From a virus, in the IMG/VR virus record IMGVR_UViG_3300002488_000028, positions 275 through 25,461 of that record: a DNA stretch of 25,187 nt. One strand, written 5' to 3'. Made by a program: the position numbers and the translations under genes. Shown in pieces: positions 665 through 23,174 of this stretch. Each line of letters starts with the position of its first letter. Within the stretch, counting starts at the first letter, position 1. The notes below the pieces were generated by a model that saw only the letters and a program-made list of their open reading frames with translations, was not told the DNA's origin and did not search any database.

Positions 665-673
665 GTGAGTACT

Positions 674-1648
674 ATGAAACCCTTTGACATCGCTTGGCGT
701 TTGCTCAAAGAAGAGGTTGATGACGAGGCTTTCAAGCGGTCTGCTTACGGTTTAATGGATGAGGGATGGGCTGACCATTTACCCGAAGATTTTGACCATG
801 AAGGATTTAATGCAGGGGATTATAATGAAATTGTTGAAAGAGAATACCCTACAGGTCAAAGTGGACATAGTCCCGGAATTAAAGAATTACAAAGGTCATT
901 ATATAATCACTATGAAAGTCCCGAAGAGAACGAGGAGCGTTTTCGTGATTTAATGGATAACCCTACTCGTGAGCCTATACTTGTCGTTAGAGATAAAAAT
1001 GGAGAAGAGCACATTATCGCTGGACATCATAGAATGGCGGCAAACATTGAGTCCAACAGACCACATCTTCCTGCTTTAATATTGGATATGAATAAGGGTA
1101 TTCAAACAGGCGAACCAATGAACCTTGCTTTCCGTTTGCTCAAGGCTCCTGTTTATACCGATGACAACCCTCCACCTATGCAACAGAGTCGGCACTATGA
1201 GATGCTGCCTGAACTTGACAAGATGGGCGGATACATGTGGCAGTCAGAAGACGGGCTGGCTCGTGGTACCTTGCGACCTGATTATTTTCTAAACAGTTTG
1301 ATGATAAATAACTTTGAGATGGCTGGGCCAGTGAGGGGGCAGAACAAGTCTCGTCAGTATCTTCAAGACATGATTGACCAAGGGCATGGTCACTTTGGTC
1401 ACGAGTTAACTGGTACGCATGTAACCAATGTTGAGAGCCATACTGCTGACTTCTGGAACAAGTTAGTCGACGAGGGTATGCTCGATGGCGCTCACGAGCG
1501 TGCGAACATACGCACGAACCTAGACGGAGACCAGCACTTTGTCTACGCTTATGACAAAGAAACCAAGCAACCTTGGAATCATGAACTGAGTGAAGAATAC
1601 GCTGATTATCACGGCTTGCCTACCGATGCGGTCTACGATAATATCTAG
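674..1648 (+). CDS. ParB-like domain protein with two AW-LK tags
   Basis: A 324-residue protein in three parts. Residues 1-12 are the tag (MKPFDIAWRLLK). Residues about 95-140 resemble the ParB/sulfiredoxin-type nucleotide-binding fold: a strand (PILVVRD), a beta turn, then AGHHRMAA at 116-123, equivalent to the GxHR signature of that family. A second tag (GEPMNLAFRLLK, 146-157) then leads into a C-terminal domain of about 165 residues that I do not recognise. An in-frame GTG lies at 665, but only the ATG at 674 places the tag at residue 1, and GAGTGAG lies just before it. ParB-like folds in viruses include CTPases and nucleases; the activity here is open. No ParA partner is visible, so a partition role is unlikely. 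Confidence 0.65.
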   Translation: MKPFDIAWRLLKEEVDDEAFKRSAYGLMDEGWADHLPEDFDHEGFNAGDYNEIVEREYPTGQSGHSPGIKELQRSLYNHYESPEENEERFRDLMDNPTREPILVVRDKNGEEHIIAGHHRMAANIESNRPHLPALILDMNKGIQTGEPMNLAFRLLKAPVYTDDNPPPMQQSRHYEMLPELDKMGGYMWQSEDGLARGTLRPDYFLNSLMINNFEMAGPVRGQNKSRQYLQDMIDQGHGHFGHELTGTHVTNVESHTADFWNKLVDEGMLDGAHERANIRTNLDGDQHFVYAYDKETKQPWNHELSEEYADYHGLPTDAVYDNI

Positions 1649-1654
1649 GAACGC

Positions 1655-1660
1655 TTTTAT
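1655..1660 (+). promoter_or_regulatory. TATA-like box for the gene at 1683
   Basis: TTTTAT lies at -28 to -23 from the ATG at 1683, just after the preceding stop codon. The ATG has no Shine-Dalgarno site and follows the sequence ATAGGGTTCAC, which resembles the TTTAGG-like words before the starts at 2548 and 6361. Confidence 0.4.
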
Positions 1661-1682
1661 CTTTAACAGCCATAGGGTTCAC

Positions 1683-1964
1683 ATGGGCGCATTCGAGAAG
1701 GCTTGGTCTGTCTTGAAGTCTAGGACTAATCGAGACTACCCTTTTACTCCAAGTGGTCGGGCTGGTAAGCAGACTCAATATTCCCCTAACTTTACAGGCA
1801 ATACTGTCCCAATGGTCGGAGGAAGCGTAGACAAAACTCCAACTGATACTTCTAGGTTTGGTGGTAAGCCGATGACATCTGGTGAACGCCGGGCTAAGGA
1901 GAAGGTAGGTATGCGACAAATGATGAGGGATGAGTCTGCACCGAATCTTGATGAGGAGGAATAA
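1683..1964 (+). CDS. Small unknown protein with N-terminal AW-LK tag
   Basis: A 93-residue protein that starts with MGAFEKAWSVLK and is otherwise polar, rich in Gly, Thr, Pro and Arg, and probably disordered, ending in the acidic stretch LDEEE. An in-frame start further upstream (1590) overlaps the ParB-like gene; the ATG at 1683 is preferred because it puts the tag at residue 1 and has a TATA-like box at -28. No family is recognised. The next gene, the Nudix hydrolase, starts 2 bases after its stop and has its ribosome site inside this gene's 3' end, so the two are probably translated from one message. Confidence 0.6.
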   Translation: MGAFEKAWSVLKSRTNRDYPFTPSGRAGKQTQYSPNFTGNTVPMVGGSVDKTPTDTSRFGGKPMTSGERRAKEKVGMRQMMRDESAPNLDEEE

Positions 1965-1966
1965 AC

Positions 1967-2530
1967 ATGGGAGTATTCGAGCAGGCTTGGACTATTCTCA
2001 AGCGTGAAGACTACAGGCAGGCTGGCGGTACCCTGATTAGAGACTCAGAGGGCCGTGTGTTATTGGTCAGAAGAAATGAACTTCTGCCTGACGGAACCAT
2101 GAAGCCGGGTGGTTCTAATCATGGTATGTACGAGTTGCCCGGTGGTAATGTCGACCCCGGTGAAACTGCTCAAGAGGGCGTAGCCAGAGAAACGCTTGAA
2201 GAGACAGGGCTTCCTCTCGTTAACATGACAGCGCTTGAGCCTAATGTTTACGACGATAAGCAAAAGGTATATCACGGATTTACTGCTGACATTGACCCTA
2301 ATCACCAAGGTGAATTACAACTCTCAGATGAGCACGACGAGTACAAGTGGATGCACCCACACGAAGCATTGGCTATGAACGAACACCCTGACGGAATGGA
2401 AATGCCTTACTGGTTAAGCCAAGATGCAGAGACTTTCTTTAGAGGAATGGTAGATAATAATGATATGCAGGGCGAGCCCATGACCAAGGCTTGGGAATTT
2501 CTAAAGGGACCGCTGGTTTTTTACAACTAA
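1967..2530 (+). CDS. Nudix hydrolase with AW-LK tags at both ends
   Basis: A 187-residue Nudix-fold hydrolase; the family cleaves nucleoside diphosphates linked to another moiety (for example oxidised dNTPs, NADH, ADP-ribose, capped RNA). The Nudix box GX5EX7REUXEEXGU is present at residues 60-82, with G60, E66, R74, E75, E78, E79 and G81 all in place, so catalysis should be intact; the hydrophobic position after RE is Thr. The chain starts with the tag MGVFEQAWTILK and ends with a second tag, GEPMTKAWEFLK, followed by seven residues. A strong GAGGAGG site lies at 1954-1960. Viral Nudix enzymes are often assigned to nucleotide-pool clean-up, decapping or NAD-related signalling; the substrate cannot be told from the sequence. 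Confidence 0.9.
   Translation: MGVFEQAWTILKREDYRQAGGTLIRDSEGRVLLVRRNELLPDGTMKPGGSNHGMYELPGGNVDPGETAQEGVARETLEETGLPLVNMTALEPNVYDDKQKVYHGFTADIDPNHQGELQLSDEHDEYKWMHPHEALAMNEHPDGMEMPYWLSQDAETFFRGMVDNNDMQGEPMTKAWEFLKGPLVFYN
2517..2523 (+). promoter_or_regulatory. TATA-like box for the metalloprotease gene
   Basis: TTTTTTA lies at -31 to -25 from the ATG at 2548 and overlaps the end of the Nudix gene. The ATG has no Shine-Dalgarno site. The surrounding ACCGCTGG plus T-run repeats the promoter region of the gene at 245, and TTTAGGCTCACGC precedes the ATG. Confidence 0.45.
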
Positions 2531-2547
2531 TCGCTTTAGGCTCACGC

Positions 2548-4206
2548 ATGGGAGCGTTTGAGCAGGCTTGGGCTTTGCTTAAAGGTCAATACTTCCATCC
2601 TTCAGTCGGCGGTTACATCGATGATAGAAGTGGTGAAGGTGATGTATCGAGGAACGAAGAGCCTGTGCCTGAAGAGGGATTGCCACCTATGGCTCCACAA
2701 CAGCCGCCACAGAAAGGACCATTCGACATAAAGGACCCAGCGCCGGGAATATTGCCCGAAGACTTTTGGTCAGACCACTTTCATGAGCGTGTTACCGATA
2801 GAAATCGTACAGCCAATGAAAAGGAAGAAGAGGAAGTTAAGGCAAGAGTAACAGAAGCCATACTACCTTTCCTTGACGCTATGGGCAATTATAGACCGGG
2901 GGCGCCTAAAAATATAGCAGTTAGAAGTCACATTTTGGGTGAGCACAGAAGTCACTCTCCTGCTAGTGAAGGCGACTCTATTGTTTCGATAATTCGACCT
3001 CATAAGATGACAGGTAAGCCTGAACTAAATACAGTAATGCTACGCAATTCTGAACTCAGTAATACCCCTCAACCTTTCAGACCAGAGGCCATGCGTGTAG
3101 ATAAAGTCATCAACAATCATAATTATTCTAACAACGAATACAAGCGTATGCTTCAACGAGCAGGGCGCATGGGAGTGAACAGAAAGCGAGGGTTTGCAAA
3201 GTCAGAAAACCTGCTGAAAGATTCTAAGATTGGAGTTTCAGGTCACGCTCCTACAAATGACCCACGGTTTTGGGAAGTCATGCAACACTACGGTACACAA
3301 GACCCAAGTCAAGTTGGAGTTCCTTTCTTACCTTACAACCCAGAATTAGCGACCATGGGTCCTCAAGTAGATGAACTGCTTGCTAATTACGGTTATGAAC
3401 CGTATTACTTTTCAGGACCGGGTGGGCGGTTTCCTTTACCTGACCTTCAGAATAAAAACTACGAGACAGGACACCTTGCTATATTCGACCCCGGAGTCAA
3501 GTCGGCTTCTTTTGGTGATGTAGATTTTACTGACAACTGGAGAAAGATTCACGAGTTAGGGCACGGTCTAGGGCTACAGGACCTCAACGCTAAGTGGGGA
3601 GAAGGTCGTAGGCTCGGTAAGGTTGGAGTAAGAAGCCCTCGTGAAATGCTTAGAGCAATTGACTGGGAAACTATGGCACTGGATAACCAAAGAAACTTGA
3701 TGAGGGAAATTGGTTTAGATATGGACCCTAAGCAATTTAACCGTGACTGGAATACTACAATCGGTGATGCAGGCTTTAGAGCATTGACTGGTAAGTTCAC
3801 ATCTCCAACCGAAGAAGGTTTCGTTCCTCATGATGAAAAGATTTCTCCAAAGCATTCTATTCGTGCTATAGAGCAGCGTGCGGAAGAACTTGGTTTGGGT
3901 ATGGATGATAACCTAAGAAGCATCAGAGGAAGGAAAGTAGCAAGCGAACCAATGGACATCGCTAATCAGTTGTTGAAATATGATGATGAAATACCGGATT
4001 ATAGCGATTACCCTGTTTATCAATGCGAAGTTTGTGATAAATACCTTGATGAGTCATCGTATTATCTTTTGAACGACCATCATTATTGTAAAGACCATTA
4101 CTTTGAATTACTTGATGGTCAAGAGTTTGACCCGGATTTTCAAAGTAAACTCACAGGCGAACCAATGGACCTTGCATTCCGTTTGTTAAAGCGACAGCAA
4201 TCTTAA
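2548..4206 (+). CDS. Metzincin-like zinc metalloprotease with LIM-like finger and three AW-LK tags
   Basis: A 552-residue modular protein. Residues 1-12 are the tag MGAFEQAWALLK. An unassigned N-terminal region (about 60-200) contains DHFHERVTDRN. HELGHGLGLQD at residues 335-345 fits the metzincin pattern HExxHxxGxxH/D with Asp as third zinc ligand, as in snapalysin (M7) peptidases. A second tag (SEPMDIANQLLK, 466-477) leads to a LIM-like half finger with C493, C496, H511, C514 and H517. A third tag (GEPMDLAFRLLK, 537-548) ends the chain. An in-frame ATG at 2491 lies inside the Nudix gene; the start at 2548 is chosen by tag position and promoter. The substrate is unknown: candidates are virion maturation, cleavage of the tags, or host cell-envelope protein. 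Peptidase assignment rests on one motif. Confidence 0.75.
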   Translation: MGAFEQAWALLKGQYFHPSVGGYIDDRSGEGDVSRNEEPVPEEGLPPMAPQQPPQKGPFDIKDPAPGILPEDFWSDHFHERVTDRNRTANEKEEEEVKARVTEAILPFLDAMGNYRPGAPKNIAVRSHILGEHRSHSPASEGDSIVSIIRPHKMTGKPELNTVMLRNSELSNTPQPFRPEAMRVDKVINNHNYSNNEYKRMLQRAGRMGVNRKRGFAKSENLLKDSKIGVSGHAPTNDPRFWEVMQHYGTQDPSQVGVPFLPYNPELATMGPQVDELLANYGYEPYYFSGPGGRFPLPDLQNKNYETGHLAIFDPGVKSASFGDVDFTDNWRKIHELGHGLGLQDLNAKWGEGRRLGKVGVRSPREMLRAIDWETMALDNQRNLMREIGLDMDPKQFNRDWNTTIGDAGFRALTGKFTSPTEEGFVPHDEKISPKHSIRAIEQRAEELGLGMDDNLRSIRGRKVASEPMDIANQLLKYDDEIPDYSDYPVYQCEVCDKYLDESSYYLLNDHHYCKDHYFELLDGQEFDPDFQSKLTGEPMDLAFRLLKRQQS

Positions 4207-4231
4207 AGGCATTTAGTGCTCTCGCCTGTAC

Positions 4232-4753
4232 ATGAGCAGAGCATTTTCTAATGCATGGACTATTTTGAAGCAGCGTGGTCACGCCATTATGCCAAACCCA
4301 GAAGAAGAAGAAGCCGAACAGCAAAGAATGCAAAGGATGATTGACGATAGAGTAGACAACTCCGACGACATGTCATTTACAATGGATGAGTATAATCAAC
4401 TTAATTCGCCACTTCGACAACCTAAAGATATAGACCGTGCCTTTGATGATTTTGAAATAGATGAAGACCAGCGTCGTGAATATTTACTAGATTTGTTAAC
4501 ACAAAGAGGTCGTGACAAATCTATAACACAGCACATTGATGCAGCAGGTCAACAGATGGGCCCTATGGCTGATTACCAAAGGCAATCTGAGGCTGACCAA
4601 ATGGAAGCAGAGGGAATAGATATTCCTATGCGACCTCGTGGTCCTCCTGCTAACATTGGACAAGCGGGCAGTTCAGGCGCTCCTCCTTTGACAGGTAATC
4701 CATTTGCTGCTGCTATGCAGCGTATGAAAGGTAATCAAAAGCCTTCACTTTGA
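4232..4753 (+). CDS. Acidic unknown protein with N-terminal AW-LK tag
   Basis: A 173-residue protein beginning MSRAFSNAWTILK, in which the tag is shifted by one residue relative to most copies. It is rich in Glu, Asp, Gln and Met, with an acidic helical stretch (residues 22-100), and no membrane segment or recognised domain. It ends with a Pro/Gly-rich tail whose last part, LTGNPFAAAMQRMKG, looks like a degenerate copy of the internal tag (LTGEPMDLAFRLLK). There is no Shine-Dalgarno site before the ATG; TTAAAG at 4203-4208 lies at about -29 and may be a weak TATA-like box. Confidence 0.6.
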   Translation: MSRAFSNAWTILKQRGHAIMPNPEEEEAEQQRMQRMIDDRVDNSDDMSFTMDEYNQLNSPLRQPKDIDRAFDDFEIDEDQRREYLLDLLTQRGRDKSITQHIDAAGQQMGPMADYQRQSEADQMEAEGIDIPMRPRGPPANIGQAGSSGAPPLTGNPFAAAMQRMKGNQKPSL

Positions 4754-4789
4754 GCAAAAGACTTATGCTTAGATTAACTCTGGGCATAA

Positions 4790-5647
4790 TTGATAACCTT
4801 GAGCGATATTGAAATTTACGAAGTAGGTCCTAGAGACGGTCTGCAAAATATAGATTTCAATGTAAGTACTCAGCAAAAGATTGATTTGATTAATAATTTG
4901 CACAAAGCGGGCCTCAAAAGTATGGAAGTTACCAGTTTCGTACACCCTAGATTAGTTCCTAACATGGCAGATGCAACTGATGTCTTCTTACAAACTAGTC
5001 ATTTAGACGATTTCGGAGTATTAATTCCTAACCAAAAGGGATTTGATAGGGCTTGGGAAGCGGGGGCCAAGAAATTCAATATATTCTTTAGCCCAAGTAA
5101 AGCGTTCAATCGAGCAAATCTTGGTAGAAACCTAGAGCAAGTTTACACAGATTATACAAATATGCTAGAGGACATTGATAGAGATGATGTGAGAGCATAT
5201 ATTTCTTGTGCCTTTGGATGTCCGTTTACAGGTAAACCGAAAGGCTGGGAATTACAACAAGTAGTTGGTATGGCCAGTGAAATGTCAAGTAAAGTGGTAT
5301 TATGCGACACAATTGGTACTGCTATTCCTAGTTCAATTAGGAGAAGTATAGACAGTTTACGCAGTAGAGATTATGAATTAGCACTTCATTTACACAATAA
5401 TAAGTCAAATGACACTAATATCTTTCAAAATGTACAGGCTGCTTTAGATATGGGAGTTAATGAATTTGATTCTAGCATCGCTGGATTAGGTGGATGTCCA
5501 TTTATACCCGGTAGCGGTAGTAATCTTTCAACTAATCAACTACTTCATTTTGCAGAGAGATACGGCTACGAAACTAAAGTAGACATTGAGTTACTTAGAG
5601 ACGCTACGGAAATGGCTTTGGGTTGGAAAACTAAGTGCTTGGTGTAG
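4790..5647 (+). CDS. HMG-CoA lyase family protein
   Basis: A 285-residue member of the HMGL-like TIM-barrel family. The closest fit is 3-hydroxy-3-methylglutaryl-CoA lyase, which splits HMG-CoA into acetyl-CoA and acetoacetate at the end of leucine breakdown. Known catalytic positions are conserved: GPRDGLQN (R15, D16), EVTSF (E47), the metal-site pair HLH (H200, H202), GLGGCP with the catalytic Cys (C236), and the following Asn in GSNLS (N245). It also has the family segment SCAFGCPFTGK. It carries no AW-LK tag, unlike its neighbours. The start is TTG at 4790; a second TTG at 4799 is equally possible and no good ribosome site precedes either. It is slightly short at the N-terminus relative to cellular enzymes but looks intact. 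Other members of the superfamily act on related acyl-CoA esters. It is probably a host-derived auxiliary metabolic gene. Confidence 0.88.
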   Translation: MITLSDIEIYEVGPRDGLQNIDFNVSTQQKIDLINNLHKAGLKSMEVTSFVHPRLVPNMADATDVFLQTSHLDDFGVLIPNQKGFDRAWEAGAKKFNIFFSPSKAFNRANLGRNLEQVYTDYTNMLEDIDRDDVRAYISCAFGCPFTGKPKGWELQQVVGMASEMSSKVVLCDTIGTAIPSSIRRSIDSLRSRDYELALHLHNNKSNDTNIFQNVQAALDMGVNEFDSSIAGLGGCPFIPGSGSNLSTNQLLHFAERYGYETKVDIELLRDATEMALGWKTKCLV

Positions 5648-5663
5648 TTAGGCTCACCTACAC

Positions 5664-5670
5664 TTTTATT
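5664..5670 (+). promoter_or_regulatory. TATA-like box for the gene at 5695
   Basis: TTTTATT lies at -31 to -25 from the ATG at 5695. No Shine-Dalgarno site precedes that ATG. The position supports the short form of the downstream gene rather than the GTG at 5635 that overlaps the lyase gene. Confidence 0.4.
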
Positions 5671-5694
5671 TCTACAAACCCATTCGGCCATATC

Positions 5695-5856
5695 ATGTTG
5701 TTAGAACTATTTTTAGTATCGCTTGCTTTTGGATTTACCTTTACTTGGTTTAGTATGAATTTATTTAAGCCAGAAGACCTTGACTTTGTAATATTTGATT
5801 CTAGTCAAGAATTGCAGGAAGTATGCTGGAAAGGTCTCCGGCACGGTGAAAAGTGA
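5695..5856 (+). CDS. Small single-pass membrane protein
   Basis: A 53-residue protein with one hydrophobic segment at about residues 2-23 and a short acidic tail (KPEDLDFVIFDSSQELQEV). A longer form from GTG 5635 would overlap the lyase gene by 13 bases; the ATG at 5695 is preferred because of the TATA-like box at -31 and because it puts the membrane segment at the N-terminus. No family is recognised. The next gene, also a small membrane protein, starts 3 bases after the stop. Together they could be a membrane pair (holin-like or superinfection-type), but nothing in the sequence tests this. Confidence 0.5.
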   Translation: MLLELFLVSLAFGFTFTWFSMNLFKPEDLDFVIFDSSQELQEVCWKGLRHGEK

Positions 5857-5859
5857 TTA

Positions 5860-6093
5860 GTGACACCAAATTTAAGTACGGTCCTTCGATGGCGAACCAT
5901 GTTCTGGGACCTTGTCACATTACTCGCCTTCTTGTGTACATGGGCTTACCTTAACGAATTGACTAAAAAAATTACCGAGTTAAGAAAAGATATTGATGAC
6001 TTAATGACATTCAATAGAATAGCGAGATACCATGCACTTAATGATGAAAAGACAAAATCAAGGGAGGCCTCTGACGATGAAAGGAAAGCGTAA
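5860..6093 (+). CDS. Small membrane-anchored coiled-coil protein
   Basis: A 77-residue protein with a membrane segment at about residues 14-31, followed by a charged helix (NELTKKITELRKDIDDLM) that looks like a coiled coil, then a polar tail. The start is GTG at 5860; GGTGA lies at 5845-5849 and GTGATTA directly before the start, inside the end of the previous gene. The layout, a short N-terminal anchor with a long charged helix, recalls spanin- or holin-partner-like proteins, but this is only a shape resemblance. Its last 17 bases overlap the zinc-ribbon gene. Confidence 0.55.
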   Translation: MTPNLSTVLRWRTMFWDLVTLLAFLCTWAYLNELTKKITELRKDIDDLMTFNRIARYHALNDEKTKSREASDDERKA

Positions 6094-6220
6094 AAGTATA
6101 GAATGTACACATTGTGGATTCCATCCCACTCGTAGAGTCTATAGAAAAATAAATGGCGTTTTCAAGGGAATAGCGTGGTTGTGTGAAAACTGCGGTAAGT
6201 TCATAAAAGATTCCGATTAA
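6077..6220 (+). CDS. Small zinc-ribbon protein
   Basis: A 47-residue basic protein with two CxxC knuckles, C10/C13 and C36/C39, separated by 22 residues, which fits a zinc ribbon. The reading frame stays open upstream to 6032, but the ATG at 6077 has a good AGGGAGG site at 6061-6067 and removes a stretch unlike a ribbon. It overlaps the preceding gene by 17 bases, so the two are probably co-transcribed. Likely roles are nucleic-acid binding or bridging to the transcription machinery; this is inference from the fold only. Confidence 0.6.
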   Translation: MKGKRKSIECTHCGFHPTRRVYRKINGVFKGIAWLCENCGKFIKDSD

Positions 6221-6249
6221 TTGATAAAGTATTACTTGACCGTTTAATT

Positions 6250-6329
6250 TGGTCCCTGACATTCACTACCTATCGACCTACCTTTTTTGTGTGTTTTCTT
6301 TTGCTTATTCCAACAAAGGTCAGGGACCA
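6250..6329. terminator. 11-bp inverted repeat around a pyrimidine-rich stretch, possible terminator or structured RNA
   Basis: TGGTCCCTGAC (6250-6260) and GTCAGGGACCA (6319-6329) are perfect complements with 58 bases between them. Between the arms lies a T-rich tract (6281-6303) of the kind that ends archaeal transcripts. The element fills most of the 140-base gap between the zinc-ribbon gene and the gene at 6361, and its right arm abuts that gene's TATA-like box. It could be a terminator, a small structured RNA, or a binding dyad. Confidence 0.4.
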
Positions 6330-6331
6330 CA

Positions 6332-6338
6332 TTTATTT
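6332..6338 (+). promoter_or_regulatory. TATA-like box for the basic-protein cluster
   Basis: TTTATTT lies at -29 to -23 from the ATG at 6361, directly after the right arm of the 6250-6329 inverted repeat. TTTAGGCAATAC precedes the ATG, similar to TTTAGGCTCACGC before 2548. There is no Shine-Dalgarno site, so the message probably begins at or near the ATG. Confidence 0.45.
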
Positions 6339-6360
6339 CTTAGTTTAGTTTAGGCAATAC

Positions 6361-6567
6361 ATGGGCGGAGCCATGGATACTGCTTTTCAAATTTTGAAAG
6401 GTGACATTGTCATAGTTTCTGAAACTGTAGCGAAGAAATTGTGTCCAGCAGGTAAGGCTGCAGCCAAGCGTAAATTCAAAGTTTATCCGTCAGCCTATGC
6501 TAACGGCTGGGCGGTACAATACTGTAAGGGTAAGTTCCGTGGTAAGAAGAAGGGGAAGAAGAAATGA
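6361..6567 (+). CDS. Small basic YPSAYAN-type viral protein with AW-LK tag
   Basis: A 68-residue, very basic protein. The N-terminus (MGGAMDTAFQILKGD) is a tag copy shifted by one residue. The rest contains CPAGKAAAKRKF then KVYPSAYANGWAVQYCKGK, a signature I recognise from small conserved proteins of many aquatic viruses and phages of unknown function, and ends in a Lys-rich tail (KKKGKKK). The charge suggests DNA or RNA binding, possibly as an internal virion protein. It heads a run of five closely packed genes (6361-7651), with ATGA or similar stop-start overlaps in three of the four junctions. Confidence 0.75.
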   Translation: MGGAMDTAFQILKGDIVIVSETVAKKLCPAGKAAAKRKFKVYPSAYANGWAVQYCKGKFRGKKKGKKK

Positions 6568-6740
6568 AGTTGAAGCGTAACTCTTGTTGTTGCGGGGGCA
6601 GTAAAGAAACTCCTTGCGTTTGTATGCTAAAGGGGGTTATGAAGTGTTCTGCAGAATCTCCTAAATGTCCCTGTTACGCTTTACTTGACAAGCAGAAAAA
6701 GAAAGCAAAGAGTATTTCAAAGATGATAGCAGTAAGGTGA
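6564..6740 (+). CDS. Small cysteine-rich protein
   Basis: A 58-residue protein that overlaps the previous stop codon as ATGA. It carries eight cysteines, in a CCC cluster at residues 8-10, then C18, C20, C28, C35 and C37, followed by a Lys-rich helix (residues 43-53). This looks like a small metal-binding or disulfide-rich fold with a basic tail. AAGGGGAAG upstream could serve as ribosome site. The next gene starts 4 bases after its stop, and the stop itself lies in AGGTGA, that gene's ribosome site. It has no clear AW-LK tag. No family is recognised. Confidence 0.6.
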   Translation: MKLKRNSCCCGGSKETPCVCMLKGVMKCSAESPKCPCYALLDKQKKKAKSISKMIAVR

Positions 6741-6744
6741 GCAT

Positions 6745-7053
6745 ATGAACGAATGTACTTGTCATGATGTTCTTGTAATTAAGAATCTTAACAGGTGGTT
6801 TAAAGAAAAGTGGGTTGATGTTTCTCGTAAAGATAAAGACGGCAAGCATCCACCGTGCGGCAGGTCAAAGGCCAAGAAAGGTAGCAAGGGTTACCCTAAG
6901 TGCAGACCTAGTGTCAAGGTTTCTAGTAAAACTCCAAAGACTTCTGGTTCAATGTCCGAAGGACAAAAGCGAGCAGCGACTAAGCGTAAGCGTAGTAAGA
7001 AGCAAGGTGTTGGTGGAAAACCTACTATAGTAAAAATGGTTAGGGTGATTTAA
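6745..7053 (+). CDS. Small basic viral protein of the WVDxSR...PCGR...YPKC type (DUF5872-like)
   Basis: A 102-residue highly basic protein. Residues about 19-60 read WFKEKWVDVSRKDKDG, then PPCGRSKAKKGSKGYPKC, followed by an SEGQKRAATKRKR stretch. This order, W[VI]D[VL]SR, PCGR, YPKC and a Lys/Arg tail, is a recurrent small protein of phages and large DNA viruses, which I recall as DUF5872; the family name is from memory. The cysteines and basic charge suggest a small zinc-stabilised nucleic-acid binder. The N-terminus (MNECTCHDVLVIKNL) lacks a clear AW-LK tag. AGGTGA precedes the start. Its stop overlaps the next start as TAATG. Confidence 0.75.
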   Translation: MNECTCHDVLVIKNLNRWFKEKWVDVSRKDKDGKHPPCGRSKAKKGSKGYPKCRPSVKVSSKTPKTSGSMSEGQKRAATKRKRSKKQGVGGKPTIVKMVRVI

Positions 7054-7388
7054 TGGAAGGAGAATTCTGTGACTGTTGCTCTCCTTCGGAGATTGCCTTT
7101 GAGTTTCTCAAGGCTAAAAAGAAATCCAAGCCTTTTCATGGATACAATAAGAACAAGCACGCCAGAACTGGTGGTCTAAATGCTAAAGGTCGTGCTGCAG
7201 CCAAGCGAAAGACTGGTGCTAACTTGAAGCGACCTGTGACAAAGAAGCCTTCTAAACTCAAACCCGGTGGTAAAGCGGCTAAGCGTCGCAAGTCTTTCTG
7301 TGCTCGAATGAGTGGGGTGAAGGGCCCAACTAGCAAAGGTGGAAAGAAGACACCGAAAGGTGCGGCACTGGCAAGGTGGAACTGTTGA
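7053..7388 (+). CDS. Small basic viral protein, GGLNAKGRAAAKRKTGANLK type (DUF6321-like), with AW-LK tag variant
   Basis: A 111-residue protein, very rich in Lys and Arg. After a Cys-containing N-terminus with a degenerate tag (SPSEIAFEFLKAKKK, residues 10-24), it has GGLNAKGRAAAKRKTGANLK, then SFCARMSGVKGP and a terminal ALARWNC. This arrangement is a well-known small conserved viral protein family, which I recall as DUF6321 (name from memory). Biochemical function is not known; the charge suggests nucleic-acid binding. AGGGTGATT lies just before the ATG within the end of the previous gene. The next gene begins inside its last codons. Confidence 0.78.
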   Translation: MEGEFCDCCSPSEIAFEFLKAKKKSKPFHGYNKNKHARTGGLNAKGRAAAKRKTGANLKRPVTKKPSKLKPGGKAAKRRKSFCARMSGVKGPTSKGGKKTPKGAALARWNC

Positions 7389-7651
7389 GACCAATTGATT
7401 CTGCTTGGCAAGTTCTAAAGCACGCCACAAGCCCTGAGGCTAAGCGCCATAAATCAGAATATGATTCTAAGTATGAGTCTACTCCTGAGCGTAAAAAATA
7501 TCATGCTGAACTAAACAGGGAAAGGCGCAAGCGTGGAATCTATGGTAGAGGTGGTCCTGATATGAGTCACACCAAAGAAGGTACAATGGTAGCCGAAGAC
7601 CCTCATGCTAACCGTGCACGCCACTTTAAGGAAAGAGGAACGCTTAAGTAA
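7385..7651 (+). CDS. Small basic viral protein (ELNRERRKRGIYG type) with N-terminal AW-LK tag
   Basis: An 88-residue basic protein starting MRPIDSAWQVLK if TTG 7385 is used. That start puts the tag at residue 1, overlaps the previous stop as TTGA, and has GGTGGA 4 bases upstream; the alternative GTG at 7376 would add three residues before the tag. The body contains YHAELNRERRKRGIYGRGGPDMSH, then VAEDPHANRARHFKERGTLK, a pattern seen in small proteins of aquatic phages and large viruses that sit together with the two preceding families. Its role is unknown. It is the last gene of the basic cluster. Confidence 0.7.
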   Translation: MRPIDSAWQVLKHATSPEAKRHKSEYDSKYESTPERKKYHAELNRERRKRGIYGRGGPDMSHTKEGTMVAEDPHANRARHFKERGTLK

Positions 7652-7698
7652 TCATTTATCCGATAAGACCATGTACTACTTGTTCTATAGAACGCACC

Positions 7699-7908
7699 GT
7701 GGAACACTGGTGGAAAACTCTACTAACTGACCTTATTGCACAGGCAGAATGTGAAGTTTTAATATTAGATTCCGCTATAGAAAAAGACGACTCTTGGGAA
7801 AACATAGCGCTTTTGGTCGAAGTATCTGAGCATCTTGATAGGCTTCGACAGGCTTATGATGAGAAAGTACTTCGGCATACACATGCTGAGTCGCAACTCT
7901 CCAAATAA
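7699..7908 (+). CDS. Small acidic helical protein
   Basis: A 69-residue protein predicted to be all helical, starting with GTG at 7699. It contains the Leu-rich heptad-like stretches TLLTDLIAQAECEVLILDSAI and ALLVEVSEHLDRLRQAY. The C-terminus is polar. The last 26 bases overlap the start of the next gene. The upstream gap (7652-7698) contains the palindrome TTCTATAGAA (7683-7692), a partial copy of the repeat at the left edge of the window, and no ribosome site. No family is recognised; the overlap suggests it is coupled to the Gly-rich protein that follows. Confidence 0.5.
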   Translation: MEHWWKTLLTDLIAQAECEVLILDSAIEKDDSWENIALLVEVSEHLDRLRQAYDEKVLRHTHAESQLSK

Positions 7909-9568
7909 TGCGGCTTGGTTATTTCTTAAACAACGCATGGGTCAAGAGCAGTCCTATGCTGATATGATTCATCCAGAAGATAAAGAAGCAATTGAAAATT
8001 ATATGGCTTCTATGTCGCCTGAAAAGCAAAAGGCTATTTCTAAGATAAGTGAATATGTTAACACACTTCCATCTGAAGAAAAGAGTAAATTAACTGCTTC
8101 TTTACATAATGCTTATTCTCAAAATGCAGGTAAGTTTTCCGAACTATTACCACCTTTGCACGAAAGTAAAGAATCTAATGAAGTAACAAAGGCCTTCTTC
8201 GTACCGATTGTTATAGCCGCTGTGTTTGCTGCTGATGCAGTTAACACTAGTCAAGGTGCAGATGCTAGTTTTGTAGGTAATGTTTTTGCTGATGTAGGTA
8301 ATACTATATCACACGGTGCTGGTGGAAACCCACAGATGTTTGGAGAAACTAATTATGGTGACATAATTGAATACAATAGTCCTAAGGGTTATGTTAACCC
8401 TCTTACTGGTACTACGCATTTTCAAAACGAAGATGCAGGTACATTAGAGAGAAGTGCTATGGGGTTAGTTAGTGGTGTAGGTAGTTTTATCAATCCATTT
8501 TCTGCATTTAAAGGAGCAAGAGCAGCAAGTAAAGTAAGGGCTCCCGGTAAAGTTAGCAGACTTACTCAAACAGGAAAAGTTGCTGATGATGCAACGGCAT
8601 CGAAAATAATGGGCAGAAAAGGAAATGCTGATTTTGCAGACGAAATGCGCCTAACCAACTATGGCAGCAGTAAAGCACCAATGGATGATATACTAGCAGA
8701 ACAGGTTAAAACAGGTAAAGGTATGGGTAGATTTGGCACAAGGGTTAAGGCTTCTAAGGACACCCAACGAGCAAAAAACATTCAAGACGCAATTGATGCA
8801 AATCCACAGGGATTTAAAAATGCACAAAAGTACATTGATGAAACTGGAGGAATGGGTACTAGAGGTAAAATTAACAGACTCGCAGGTGCAACTTACAGTC
8901 CTACCAAATGGGGCCGGTTCGGAAACGCTCTTGGAAGGAATGCTTACAGATTACTCCAAGGTAATGAAAGAATGCCCAATCCAATTAATCCATTCCAAAT
9001 GATTTTCGGACAAGGTCCGGGTGATGTTCCCGGTGGTGGTAATCTTGACACTTCTGGTTTTGCATCAGGCTCTTCTTTTTCTAACACAAATTCTTTTGCA
9101 GGAGGTGCCGGAGGTGGTACTGCTGGAGGATTTGGTGACGGATACGGCATGGGCAATGTTTCGAATATAGATTCTAACATGTCACAGCGCAGAGAAGTAT
9201 GGAACCCATACGCAGATTATTCCACAACTAGAGGACAGACCCTCGCCGGAAGAGGCATGGGGGACCCCGGTTCCTTTGGTGGATTTGGAAAAGGTGATAC
9301 TATGAAAATTGGAGAAAGAATGTTAAAAGACGCTACTGAATTAATGTATAACAGAAACACCGTAAGTAAAGAAGATGACTGTTGCCCTAATTGTGGGGAA
9401 AAAGTTGGTAAAATGGGCTGCATGAAAATGGGCTGCGGTGGTATGAATAAAGCCGACAAAAAACCTGCTGGCGGTATGGTTATAGTCATCGGCTCTAAAG
9501 CAGGTCCCGGACCTTCTAAAGACGGTAAGCGTGAAAAGTTAGATTCTGAAAAGGATAAGAAAGAGTGA
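7883..9568 (+). CDS. Large Gly-rich protein with AW-LK tag and C-terminal Cys cluster
   Basis: A 561-residue protein. Near the N-terminus NNAAWLFLKQRM (residues 8-19) is a tag copy. A helical region follows, then hydrophobic stretches (FFVPIVIAAVFAADAV near residue 100 and LVSGVGSFINPFSAF near 200), a basic central part, a Gly/Asn/Ser-rich segment (about 375-430) and a Cys-rich end with DDCCPNCGEKVGKMGC and GCGG that could bind zinc. The ATG at 7883 is chosen because it gives a near-terminal tag; an upstream ATG at 7835 overlaps the previous gene more. The mix of hydrophobic patches and glycine-rich linkers would suit an internal virion or membrane-penetration protein, but no family is recognised. 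Confidence 0.6.
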   Translation: MLSRNSPNNAAWLFLKQRMGQEQSYADMIHPEDKEAIENYMASMSPEKQKAISKISEYVNTLPSEEKSKLTASLHNAYSQNAGKFSELLPPLHESKESNEVTKAFFVPIVIAAVFAADAVNTSQGADASFVGNVFADVGNTISHGAGGNPQMFGETNYGDIIEYNSPKGYVNPLTGTTHFQNEDAGTLERSAMGLVSGVGSFINPFSAFKGARAASKVRAPGKVSRLTQTGKVADDATASKIMGRKGNADFADEMRLTNYGSSKAPMDDILAEQVKTGKGMGRFGTRVKASKDTQRAKNIQDAIDANPQGFKNAQKYIDETGGMGTRGKINRLAGATYSPTKWGRFGNALGRNAYRLLQGNERMPNPINPFQMIFGQGPGDVPGGGNLDTSGFASGSSFSNTNSFAGGAGGGTAGGFGDGYGMGNVSNIDSNMSQRREVWNPYADYSTTRGQTLAGRGMGDPGSFGGFGKGDTMKIGERMLKDATELMYNRNTVSKEDDCCPNCGEKVGKMGCMKMGCGGMNKADKKPAGGMVIVIGSKAGPGPSKDGKREKLDSEKDKKE

Positions 9569-18571: not shown

Positions 18572-20050
18572 GTGGAAGGGATGGATGAATTCGTCAGGGA
18601 CATGGACCTACAGATGTCTTCAAAGTCCTTTGAGTATTTCTTCACTGAAATATTGGAATTCGAGTTTTCAGACCATCACGAAGATTGGCTAAAAGGCCTC
18701 AATGAAAGTAGAAGATACTGCGTCAAAGCGAGCCGTGACCACGGTAAATCTGTATTTTTCATGTCTTATGCCCTTTGGTTAGCGGCATTTAATCCAAAGA
18801 CTCACATCATGATATTCAGTCACAGCCTAGAGCAGACCCTTGAGCACATGCGTTTTATCAGAAATAACATAGAATCTTCTGACATACTCAAAGGACTAAA
18901 GCCTCAAGGTAAACCTTGGGCTAAGTCTTATTTCGAATTCACTAATGGCAGTCGTCTTATGGCTAAGTCGGTTGGTGGTGCTACTCGTGGTTTCCACCCT
19001 GATGTAGTAGTATGTGACGATATTCTTTGGGGTACAACCTCAGGTGAATTACAAAGGGCAGCCGACTGGTTCTATACTGTTTTACTTCCGGTTCTGCACC
19101 ACACAGGTAGACTGATGATGGTCGGTACACCGTTTAGTTACAACGATTTGTACGCTGAGTTGGAAGATAAAAAGGCATTCAGAGTCGAAACTTATCCTGC
19201 TATATTATCTAATGGTGAACCTCTTTGGCCCAGCCGATGGCCACTTGATGCACTTAAGGTACGAGAAGATTCTATGCCAGCGATTAAATTCGCTCGTGAG
19301 TATTTGTGTGAACCTATCCACGACATGTCAAGTATGTTCCCAATGACTCTGTTAGAAAAGGCTAGGGATAAAAACTTGGTATTACTTGACAAAGCAGAAG
19401 AAGAGTTTGATGAAAACGGGGAGTCTGCGGGCATATTTGGTCAACACTTTGTAGGCTGGGACCCTGCTATTGCATCTGATTCAAATGCAGACTACACCGC
19501 TATGACTGTTCTTAGAGTGTTACCTGATAGTGAAGAAAAACAACTAGTGTATGTTTTGAATGAAAAGGGACTTGGTGGTGCTGCTCAAAAAAGACATGTC
19601 ATATTACTTAACAATAGATTTCAACCTGACTTAATTGAACTTGAAGGTAACAACTTTCAGCGTATGTTTGAGGCGGAACTTAAAGAGATGAGAGATGACA
19701 TTCCTATCAAGACATTTATGACAACTCGTCAGAGAAAGGAAAGTATGTTTATGTCTTTATTGATGGCCTTTGAACAAGGTAAAATCAAGACGCCTTGGGG
19801 TAATGAGAAGAGTAAAGAATTCACTCGTACATTAGAAACTCAACTTAGTAGATTCGGTATGCAGAAAAATGGCCGGTTAGAGTCTGTCGGTACTCACGAT
19901 GACTTGGCTATGAGTTTAGCATTGGCTAATTGGGCTACTAAAGAATTCAGAGGAAGTGTAGTGTCATTAGACGATTACATGCCCGAATTTGATAATTTAT
20001 TTGGAGAAGCGCCTAGAAGTAGTGTAGCGGGAGCATGGTTTATCGCATGA
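18572..20050 (+). CDS. terL: Terminase large subunit
   Basis: A 492-residue DNA-packaging motor protein that would cut concatemeric DNA and pump it through the portal into the prohead. The ATPase domain has a Walker A variant ASRDHGKS (residues 53-60), Walker B VVVCDD (145-150) and a coupling motif VGTPFS (184-189). The RNase H-like nuclease domain has its acidic residues at GWD (D297), IELEG (E356/E358) and HDDLAMSLA (D443/D444). All core motifs are present at normal length. The start is taken as GTG 18572 with GAGTGATGA upstream; ATG 18581 is possible. It lies after the Gly/Ala-rich gene and before a LAGLIDADG gene and the portal. Confidence 0.95.
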   Translation: MEGMDEFVRDMDLQMSSKSFEYFFTEILEFEFSDHHEDWLKGLNESRRYCVKASRDHGKSVFFMSYALWLAAFNPKTHIMIFSHSLEQTLEHMRFIRNNIESSDILKGLKPQGKPWAKSYFEFTNGSRLMAKSVGGATRGFHPDVVVCDDILWGTTSGELQRAADWFYTVLLPVLHHTGRLMMVGTPFSYNDLYAELEDKKAFRVETYPAILSNGEPLWPSRWPLDALKVREDSMPAIKFAREYLCEPIHDMSSMFPMTLLEKARDKNLVLLDKAEEEFDENGESAGIFGQHFVGWDPAIASDSNADYTAMTVLRVLPDSEEKQLVYVLNEKGLGGAAQKRHVILLNNRFQPDLIELEGNNFQRMFEAELKEMRDDIPIKTFMTTRQRKESMFMSLLMAFEQGKIKTPWGNEKSKEFTRTLETQLSRFGMQKNGRLESVGTHDDLAMSLALANWATKEFRGSVVSLDDYMPEFDNLFGEAPRSSVAGAWFIA

Positions 20051-20088: not shown

Positions 20089-21396
20089 ATGTGGGGTTCG
20101 TTATCAGTTGGGAAATCAAACGATTTTCTTGAAATGGATAATCCAATAAAATCTATTGTAGCCTCTACATTGATGTCTCATCCTAAAGTAGATGAGGCTA
20201 TAGCAAAGTCAATTGCTTCTGAAACTATTATATTCGAAGAAGCAACTTTACCTCAAGTGAATTACGCCCCATTCTGTATAACTGGTGAAGGTTGGTTTGA
20301 AGACAAGTTAGGAAAAAGCGCAACTGATATTGTAAAGGAATTAAGAAAGGCTCGTAGAATTCATAAAGATGCCAAGCACGAAATAGATGAATTGATTTCT
20401 AATGTTATCAAAATAAAATCTATGGAAGTAGAGGCCACTCTTCATAAGTTAGATTGGGCAACCCCATACCATGATACTATGCGGAGTCTAGGACTTAGTG
20501 ATAAATCACTAAAGTCTCTAAGGCTATTTGGTAAAAGTAGGGAAACTAGCCTTACTAGAGCATGTAATTTATGGGACAATGCAGAATCTACACTAAAGCA
20601 GTTAGATGAATTTCAAGATGTATGGGGTGAAGAGGAGCGACTGACATGGGTAAATGCCATGCAGAACAAACAAGACGCCCGTAAAATGTGGAAAAGTGCC
20701 CTTCATCAATTTGAAAATTTATCTAAAGAGCAACAAAAGTGGATGAAATTAGCCAAGGAAGAGATAAAGACACATGGCTCTATGACTGCTAAAACGATTA
20801 CAGGTAACCTTATTGAAAAGGGAGTACCTAGATTGAACCGCAATAGAATGTCTAAATTGCTAAAAATGTACGGTGAAGAAATCAATATTATTTCTGGTCA
20901 CCGAAAAGGTGAATATATGTGCATGGACCGAGATGGCTTGATTATCAAAGACCCTTGGGCTTATGCTGCTGGCTTCCTTGACGCTGATGGTTATATCACT
21001 ATCACTGAAAGGGGTGAGCCTCGTGCAGGATTTATTGCTACTGGTGACAGAGGTAGAATTCACTGTGAGCAACTTCACAAAAATATAGGCGCAGGTAAGT
21101 TACAATTAGACCAGAAGGTGTACAAAGATACTCAAAGAAGTCAACATAGAGTTAGTTTCTATTCAAAGGAGGATTTGTCAAAATTATTAGCAGGCATTAC
21201 TCCACATCTCCGTATGAAAGATAGACAAGCGAAGGCTGTATCCGCTTATCTAACAGAAACTGACCCAGTTAGAAAAGATGAAATTAAAAGATTTGTTCAA
21301 TTTTCTAATAGAGATGGTACCACTAAAGGTGAGGAATCACTTAAAGAGTGGGGAGTAGACCGAGATACAGTAATGAGTTGGGGAACTGGGGTATAA
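20089..21396 (+). CDS. Single-motif LAGLIDADG-type protein, free-standing endonuclease or DNA-binding relative
   Basis: A 435-residue protein. The first 235 residues are helical and unassigned. Residues about 235-285 look like a winged-helix or homeodomain-like segment (MTAKTITGNLIEKGVPRLNRNRMSKLLK). Residues 291-302 read AYAAGFLDADGY, a LAGLIDADG helix with D298 and D300 in place, followed by the expected strands and the closing segment HLRMKDRQAKAVSAYL. Only one LAGLIDADG helix is visible, so the enzyme would have to act as a dimer. It is not inside another gene; terminase and portal on both sides are uninterrupted. It may be a homing endonuclease, a nuclease recruited to packaging, or a domesticated DNA-binding protein. 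Confidence 0.75.
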   Translation: MWGSLSVGKSNDFLEMDNPIKSIVASTLMSHPKVDEAIAKSIASETIIFEEATLPQVNYAPFCITGEGWFEDKLGKSATDIVKELRKARRIHKDAKHEIDELISNVIKIKSMEVEATLHKLDWATPYHDTMRSLGLSDKSLKSLRLFGKSRETSLTRACNLWDNAESTLKQLDEFQDVWGEEERLTWVNAMQNKQDARKMWKSALHQFENLSKEQQKWMKLAKEEIKTHGSMTAKTITGNLIEKGVPRLNRNRMSKLLKMYGEEINIISGHRKGEYMCMDRDGLIIKDPWAYAAGFLDADGYITITERGEPRAGFIATGDRGRIHCEQLHKNIGAGKLQLDQKVYKDTQRSQHRVSFYSKEDLSKLLAGITPHLRMKDRQAKAVSAYLTETDPVRKDEIKRFVQFSNRDGTTKGEESLKEWGVDRDTVMSWGTGV

Positions 21397-21398
21397 TT

Positions 21399-23174
21399 AT
21401 GGCAGAAAAGAAGGGCAGAGTAGCGAGATTATTGGAATCAATAGGTAATCCATTCCGCCGTAGAAGAACTCCTGAGCCTCAGATGCCTTTGTGGACCACT
21501 GGTATACAAGAGCCAGTCCTTGTACAAGGTATTACTATACCTGCACTTTATGCTGTATCGAATGAGAATCTTATTCTTAGGACAGTGTTAACTACATTAC
21601 AGCAAGAAATATTCAGAAGAGGTTATTTTTGGGATGAGACATTTAAGAAAAAGTGCGTTGCTTGCGAAAAAGAATATCAGCACGATGTCGATGTTTGTGA
21701 AGAGTGCGGCTCTGCAGAATTAACAAAGCCTGACCCGGACCAAATAGTGTATGCGAAGTGGTTGTTAGAGCAGCGCAACTCTATGGAGCAAAGTTTCATG
21801 GATGTACTTAGAGAAATAGAATATGATTTGAATATTACAGATGATGCTTTTCTAATTTTGATAAAAGAATACTATATTGATGAAGAAACAAACGAAGTAC
21901 AATTCTATAGAATAAAGGAGATAGTCAGAGGTGACCCTATCTTTATGCGTATTATTGCGGATAAGAGAGGGGTTAGGGGTGGTAGATTTAGAATATGCCC
22001 TATTCACCGTAACAATGTAAAATCATATAGTGAGGAAGAAAAGTCTTGCGATATATGTGGTCATGAAATGGAAGATGTGCACCATGTAAATACAGCAGGT
22101 GCTGGTAAAACCCAGTACTATCTGAAGGGCGAAGTAATACATGTAAGTAAGTATCAACCTTCTAAGTTGTACGGGCGCTCTCCTGTGTCTACATTATGGA
22201 GGCAGGCTATGACATTGACTGCGATGGATAACTACATGTATACATCTTACAGTAAAAGAAGAACGCCCAAAGGTTTGATTTCTGTTACTACAGACAATTT
22301 AGAATCTATGAAGTCGTTTTTCAAATCTATGGATGAAAAACTAGAGCGTGACCCTCACTATATCCCTAAGATTGGTATAGAATCCAGTACAGGTAAAGGG
22401 GGAGTCAATTGGGTTAAGTTCATGGATACGCTAGAAGAAATGCAATACATACCTGCTCGTGATGAAATGAGGCAGCGTATTGCTTCTTTCTATGGTGTAT
22501 CTAATGTATTCATGATGGATACTGGTAAGTCTGGTGGACTCAATAATGAAGGTATGCAAATATTAGTTACAAACCGTGCAGTAGAATTTGGTCACAAAGT
22601 ATACACTGAACATTTGTTCCCTAGATTAATGGAAGAGATGGACATTACTGATTGGAAACTAACACTTTATCCGAATGAAGAAGAAGACGAAGTTACTCGA
22701 CTACGCCGTGACGAGATGGAAGTTAACATCGCTCAGAGAATGATGATGATGGGCTATAAGCCTCAGTTATCTGAAACTGCAAATAGAGATATAAGATTCG
22801 TGTACAAGCAACCTGACCCAGAAGAGGCGGCTATGCAGCAACAGCCTCCTATGGGAGGAATGCCTCCGGGTGGTATGCCAATGGGAGGAATGCAAATGGG
22901 CGGTGGTATGGGCACACCCGGAGCACTACCAAGTCGTAATATAAATCCTCAACAGGCAGCAGCCATGGCTAGACAAGCACAAGGTGGAATGCCTCAGCCG
23001 GGAGGAGAGGGGCAAGGAATACGAACTCCAAGTGGACCAGCAAGTCCTCAAAACAGAACTAGCATGGGCTCAGGCTCACCAATGTCAAGTGTTCAGCAAA
23101 GAGGCTCCCAAATGGGACCAGTTCAGCAAGCAGGTCAGAATATAGTAAATGCCCGTAACCCTAGAGGGGCTTAG
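21399..23174 (+). CDS. Portal protein with two zinc knuckle pairs
   Basis: A 591-residue portal, the dodecameric ring at the capsid vertex through which DNA enters and leaves. The diagnostic core is GEVIHVSKYQPSKLYGRSPV and the following helices, then DEMRQRIASFYGVSNVFM and SGGLNNEGMQILVTNRAVEF, typical of phage portals. Two cysteine groups interrupt the first half: C86, C89, C100, C103 and C200, H203, C217, C220, each able to bind zinc. The last 100 residues are Met/Gly/Gln/Pro-rich and disordered. An in-frame ATG at 21348 lies inside the previous gene; ATG 21399 follows its stop by 2 bases. Its place next to the large terminase is the standard order for tailed viruses. Confidence 0.88.
   Translation: MAEKKGRVARLLESIGNPFRRRRTPEPQMPLWTTGIQEPVLVQGITIPALYAVSNENLILRTVLTTLQQEIFRRGYFWDETFKKKCVACEKEYQHDVDVCEECGSAELTKPDPDQIVYAKWLLEQRNSMEQSFMDVLREIEYDLNITDDAFLILIKEYYIDEETNEVQFYRIKEIVRGDPIFMRIIADKRGVRGGRFRICPIHRNNVKSYSEEEKSCDICGHEMEDVHHVNTAGAGKTQYYLKGEVIHVSKYQPSKLYGRSPVSTLWRQAMTLTAMDNYMYTSYSKRRTPKGLISVTTDNLESMKSFFKSMDEKLERDPHYIPKIGIESSTGKGGVNWVKFMDTLEEMQYIPARDEMRQRIASFYGVSNVFMMDTGKSGGLNNEGMQILVTNRAVEFGHKVYTEHLFPRLMEEMDITDWKLTLYPNEEEDEVTRLRRDEMEVNIAQRMMMMGYKPQLSETANRDIRFVYKQPDPEEAAMQQQPPMGGMPPGGMPMGGMQMGGGMGTPGALPSRNINPQQAAAMARQAQGGMPQPGGEGQGIRTPSGPASPQNRTSMGSGSPMSSVQQRGSQMGPVQQAGQNIVNARNPRGA

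Follow-up and report, generated by a model that had tools for sequence, protein, structure and literature searches.

What does an HMG-CoA lyase gene do in the genome of an archaeal virus? The window analysed here, meaning the whole stretch of 25,187 nucleotides, is part of a 33,267-base IMG/VR record (IMGVR_UViG_3300002488_000028) that is itself a fragment. One of its open reading frames was originally predicted, from the letters alone, to encode an intact and active HMG-CoA lyase in an accessory block. The features referred to below are as follows, where 'tagged' denotes a short N-terminal pattern described later.

665–1648, + strand: tagged protein with a ParB-like stretch, IIAGHHRMAA (phrog_4715, E=7e-4)
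1967–2530, + strand: tagged NUDIX hydrolase (Pfam PF00293, E=4e-22)
2548–4206, + strand: tagged protein with a HELGHGLGLQD zinc-peptidase-like motif, found by sequence reading, and tag-like repeats near the C-terminus too
4232–4753, + strand: upstream neighbour of the lyase gene, with the N-terminal tag AWTILK (tag scan)
4790–5647, + strand: HMG-CoA lyase homologue of the type I magroviral subfamily (HMMs, PDB, AlphaFold, Foldseek)
5635–6093, + strand: two small hydrophobic untagged ORFs downstream of the lyase gene, 5635–5856 and 5860–6093 (ORF list, tag scan)
18572–20050, + strand: terminase large subunit, the basis of the virus phylogeny (Pfam, PHROG, tree)
20089–21396, + strand: C5, a conserved gene that separates terminase from portal and includes an HNH-like stretch (PHROG scan, gene order)
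21399–23174, + strand: portal protein (PF04860, phrog_18178)

The presence of a terminase, a portal and an S78 prohead protease identifies a head-tailed virus. Its relatives G001, G002 and G003 span 93–103 kb, compared with the 33 kb of the fragmentary record, and encode a family B DNA polymerase and a chaperonin. Both genes are described for Magrovirales, whose assigned hosts are Marine Group II archaea (PMC10768690, PMC12999244) and whose ICTV exemplars include ON649702 and PP497039. Judged by the gene content of relatives, the record comes from a head-tailed virus of the Magrovirales type, an assignment at the level of order. The window's own group has a GC content near 42% and, from our reading of the sequences, a thermosome-type chaperonin. 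GC is lower, at about 33–35%, in a second group of relatives, whose one long contig tested has a GroEL-like chaperonin. These two properties fit Aoguangviridae, for which 31.5% GC and GroEL are given in PMC10768690. The chaperonin is thermosome-like in the window-type G001 and G002, and GroEL-like in the low-GC G003 (L034, L035, L036).

The lyase ORF starts with TTG, has 285 codons and contains no internal stop. The second TTG, at 4799, is probably the translation start, rather than that at 4790, because the resulting LSDIEIYEVG aligns with MSDVSIYEVG of relatives. In two other contigs (L031, 9998–10000; L026, 4567–4569) the lyase seems to be CTG-started, with a Shine-Dalgarno-like AAGGAGG just before it, close to where the upstream gene ends. 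Residues 7–275 of the window protein match Pfam PF00682 (E=4.5e-29). The hydroxymethylglutaryl-CoA lyase model NF004283 of NCBIfam is passed narrowly, with 246.7 bits against a cut-off of 246. A PDB search aligned human HMGCL (2cw6) with residues 7–273 (E=1e-48). A search of a phage collection returned only three distant matches, at 34–37% identity. We also predicted the structure with AlphaFold; an input alignment of the window, viral and bacterial sequences gave a model with pLDDT 92.8 and pTM 0.91, whereas a single-sequence run gave pLDDT 34. When the model was compared with the PDB using Foldseek, the top 14 matches were exclusively HMG-CoA lyases (best E 6.9e-29; human HMGCL 7e-29). The next enzyme family followed at about 2e-14. 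By this ranking the protein belongs with the HMG-CoA lyases and not elsewhere among the DRE-TIM enzymes. Taken together, the concordant Pfam, NCBIfam and PDB searches and the predicted fold identify the ORF as a complete HMG-CoA lyase homologue, as the original prediction had proposed.

We then mapped the active site on human HMGCL, taking the residue roles to be those established for the human enzyme. The segments concerned are these.

4832–4837, + strand: R15-D16 (human R41-D42), catalytic Arg and metal-binding Asp, the same in 30/30 viral copies
4925–4927, + strand: E46 (human E72), from alignment to human HMGCL
5387–5395, + strand: H200-x-H202 (human H233/H235), metal ligands and catalytic histidine, invariant in viral and cellular copies
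5396–5422, + strand: replaced loop, with NNKSNDTNI for the cellular HDTxG-xA, 3 residues longer (alignment)
5495–5536, + strand: glycine-rich catalytic loop from C236 to N245 (human C266 to N275), with Asn249 for Glu279 (alignment)

R15, D16, E46, H200, H202, C236 and N245 of the window lyase correspond to human R41, D42, E72, H233, H235, C266 and N275. According to sequence and model, D16, H200, H202 and N245 form the metal site, and Arg15 and Cys236 are catalytic. Sixteen residues of the catalytic site or pocket (human E37, R41, D42, Q45, E72, S75, N138, R165, Y167, S169, D204, T205, H233, H235, C266 and N275) are retained unchanged in every one of the 30 viral copies aligned. Hence, the claim that every catalytic residue is present stood, once the glutamate given as E47 was renumbered E46. 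The description of the enzyme as intact needs qualification, since the HDTxG motif and Glu279 are replaced. The HDTxG loop, which follows the metal-binding histidines, is lost in every viral copy and 2 to 4 extra residues are present. At the position of human E279, Asn occurs in 14/14 type I copies (the subfamilies are defined below), Glu in 10/15 type II copies and Glu in 37/37 sampled cellular copies. Human S201 is replaced by Val throughout the viral set. The HDTxG loop and Glu279 are conserved in cellular enzymes but are not known to be strictly required, so we did not count them among the defining features of the family.

The altered loops raise the alternative of a DRE-TIM lyase with a shifted substrate, in which the new post-HxH loop and the changed Cys loop admit another beta-hydroxyacyl-CoA, for example one of the archaeal host, or a 2-hydroxy-acid. 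Magroviruses would then own lyase-like subfamilies in which a remodelled active-site mouth changed substrate or control, in a function useful enough for divergent versions to replace each other among viruses. Loop 203–211 and position 249 are indeed unlike nearly all or all sampled cellular HMG-CoA lyases, the loop change is common to the viral copies, and the viral group has a long stem in the lyase tree. Conversely, no residue with a metal-binding or acyl-binding role in human HMGCL has been lost, and the closest folds are HMG-CoA lyases without exception. We consider a shifted substrate or control unlikely. The shared loop change nevertheless poses a clear and testable biochemical question.

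The gene is widely distributed. Among 37 long related contigs (about 47–109 kb, found via the terminase and including some near-duplicates), at least 21 carry an HMG-CoA lyase gene, a lower bound because many of the contigs are fragments. Our lyase tree contained 30 viral and 37 bacterial copies. The contig scan returned bacteria only, so the separation of the viral group is shown for the bacteria sampled. All 30 viral copies fall on one side of the tree, apart from 37/37 bacterial enzymes (support 100/99). They comprise type I (n=14, including the window), type II (n=15) and one further copy, L200. In L187 (G437:C1:66855-67691) a type II lyase match runs through one TAG. Two records of >300 kb labelled Acinetobacter phage (H1, CAKLQH020000001.1; H2, CAKLQF020000001.1) have a lyase-like 'leuA' beside a CoA-transferase, and possibly include bacterial DNA.

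The viral lyases are under strong purifying selection, with dN/dS of 0.035–0.25 across the 12 pairs with finite dS, some of it near saturation. Together with the invariant residues, this fits a functional gene. It also weighs against a passenger gene of recent host origin and no benefit to the virus. The patchy presence and repeated replacement of the lyase would suit such a passenger, but the viral branch is separate and deep, and the occurrence of two divergent types among viruses with similar terminases suggests selection for function. We regard a passenger gene as very improbable.

The history of the lyase differs from that of the terminase. The window terminase is 84–91% identical to those of L072, L087 and L092, whose lyases are type II and only about 39–43% identical to that of the window. 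Conversely, type I lyases with 53–60% identity to the window's sit in viruses whose terminases are only about 38% identical. Four changes between types I and II are required on the terminase tree. For the window copy, this mismatch led us to reject vertical inheritance with the terminase. Because the window has a type I gene, its nearest terminase kin have type II and its closest lyase kin have distant terminases, the gene appears to move between viruses; exchange is the simplest reading of the two trees.

The location of the gene also varies. The low-GC group has the order terminase-C5-lyase-portal, and L006-type viruses have terminase-lyase-C5-portal. An upstream accessory block is instead the site of the lyase in the window, in L027 and in most of the type II viruses. 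We rejected the terminase-portal gap as a fixed site for the lyase, because in most relatives this gap holds other small genes or nothing. The terminase-C5 gap looks like a variable cargo slot (L094, L097, L112, L117 and L121-L145 were compared): it is empty in close relatives of the window, contains small basic or tagged genes elsewhere, and holds the lyase in L006-type viruses. The position between terminase and portal in many relatives, namely the low-GC group and L006-type viruses, could hint that the protein moonlights in head assembly or serves there without enzymatic activity. However, the catalytic site is invariant in 30/30 copies, most relatives lack a lyase in this gap, and the window and type II viruses keep the gene elsewhere. 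A role in head assembly is thus highly doubtful.

An assembly chimaera was rejected as the origin of the window arrangement, because an independent 96.8 kb contig (L027/G001) has a lyase of the same kind inside a block of the same kind, and because the gene, with 37.8% GC, differs little from its neighbours in base composition. Synteny therefore gave no sign of a chimaeric join, and the accessory block of an archaeal virus, part of the original prediction, recurs in L027/G001. Among the window proteins scanned, we identified no further leucine-breakdown or mevalonate-pathway enzymes. The protein encoded at 2548–4206 has a CxxC-rich stretch near its C-terminus, with a weak LIM-domain match.

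Many neighbours of the lyase share the N-terminal tag W-x(1,2)-[LIVFM]-[LIVM]-K, which reads AWxLLK in the window's group and MSWKDILK in the low-GC group. In the two virus groups it occurs near the N-terminus of 50/305 and 40/122 ORFs, where shuffling predicts 1.0 and 0.6, respectively. Tagged proteins were noted in window positions 665-9568 and in L002, L003, L005, L027, L028, L030, L031 and L201-L213; some repeat the tag near the C-terminus (GEPMDLAFRLLK). The lyase had been said to lack the tag, and the wider sample agrees: 0/31 viral HMG-CoA lyases carry it. Phage internal head proteins have targeting sequences, and by analogy we would guess that the tag marks packaged proteins. Tag-like stretches (ISIVKAD, FQILKSD, SELLKA) also lie close to the N-termini of the S78 prohead protease and a putative capsid protein, in L010 (15128-16507 and 16524-16940) and L003 (18144-19343). 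These stretches would fit a tag that is a protease-related site. The tag is possibly a packaging or prohead-protease signal, and may separate packaged proteins from those that act in the cell. Its absence from the lyase agrees with action inside the cell.

Our preferred reading, to which we give a probability of roughly 0.6, is that the virus encodes a TIM-barrel (S)-HMG-CoA lyase that is produced in infected Marine Group II cells and stays out of the virion. TIM-barrel lyases of the HMG-CoA lyase family act on (S)-HMG-CoA (PMC6689899). With a divalent metal, the window enzyme would convert (S)-HMG-CoA to acetyl-CoA and acetoacetate. This cleavage would complete leucine breakdown and would drain HMG-CoA otherwise bound for mevalonate and ether lipids; the acetyl-CoA released would return this carbon to energy metabolism and biosynthesis as lytic growth proceeds. 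Late expression is likely, because the gene lies on the same strand as the head genes. Points against this reading are the identity of about 37% to characterised enzymes, the barely passed NF004283 cut-off, the changes to HDTxG and Glu279, and the failure to find companion leucine-breakdown or mevalonate enzymes among the window proteins scanned. A literature search for HMG-CoA lyase or leucine breakdown in the host gave nothing usable. If active, the enzyme would let the virus act on HMG-CoA, the point at which leucine breakdown and the mevalonate route to membrane ether lipids come together. Marine Group II is one of the commonest groups of marine archaea. Since over half of the sampled long magroviral contigs have the gene, altered carbon flow during infection could be widespread.

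The known enzymes provide a frame for these observations. Human HMGCL (2cw6, 3mp3-3mp5) and the bacterial lyases 1ydo, 1ydn, 2ftp and 6nds share with the window lyase the TIM barrel, metal ligands, catalytic Arg/His/Cys and pocket. In structural alignments they are 31–37% identical to it. The window protein differs from them in the replaced HDTxG loop, longer by 3 residues, in Asn for E279 and in Val for S201. Isopropylmalate, homocitrate and citramalate synthases and 4-hydroxy-2-oxovalerate aldolase have the fold and HxH metal site in common with it. Matches to these other DRE-TIM metallolyases are far weaker (at most 44 bits in NCBIfam, compared with 247 for the lyase model; Foldseek E about 1e-14, compared with 1e-28). 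In magroviruses the gene is already known: PMC10160649 lists HMG-CoA lyase as a magroviral auxiliary gene, and PMC10768690 names it for the Aoguangviridae exemplar ON649702. Compared by description, those viruses belong to the same order by gene content, and their lyases agree in enzyme name and auxiliary-gene class; the available portions of these accounts make no mention of a split into two subfamilies, of the replaced loop or of gene exchange among viruses. New here are the distribution count, the viral branch with two main subfamilies, the invariant residues, the purifying selection, the changes to the loop and Glu279, and the apparent movement between viruses.
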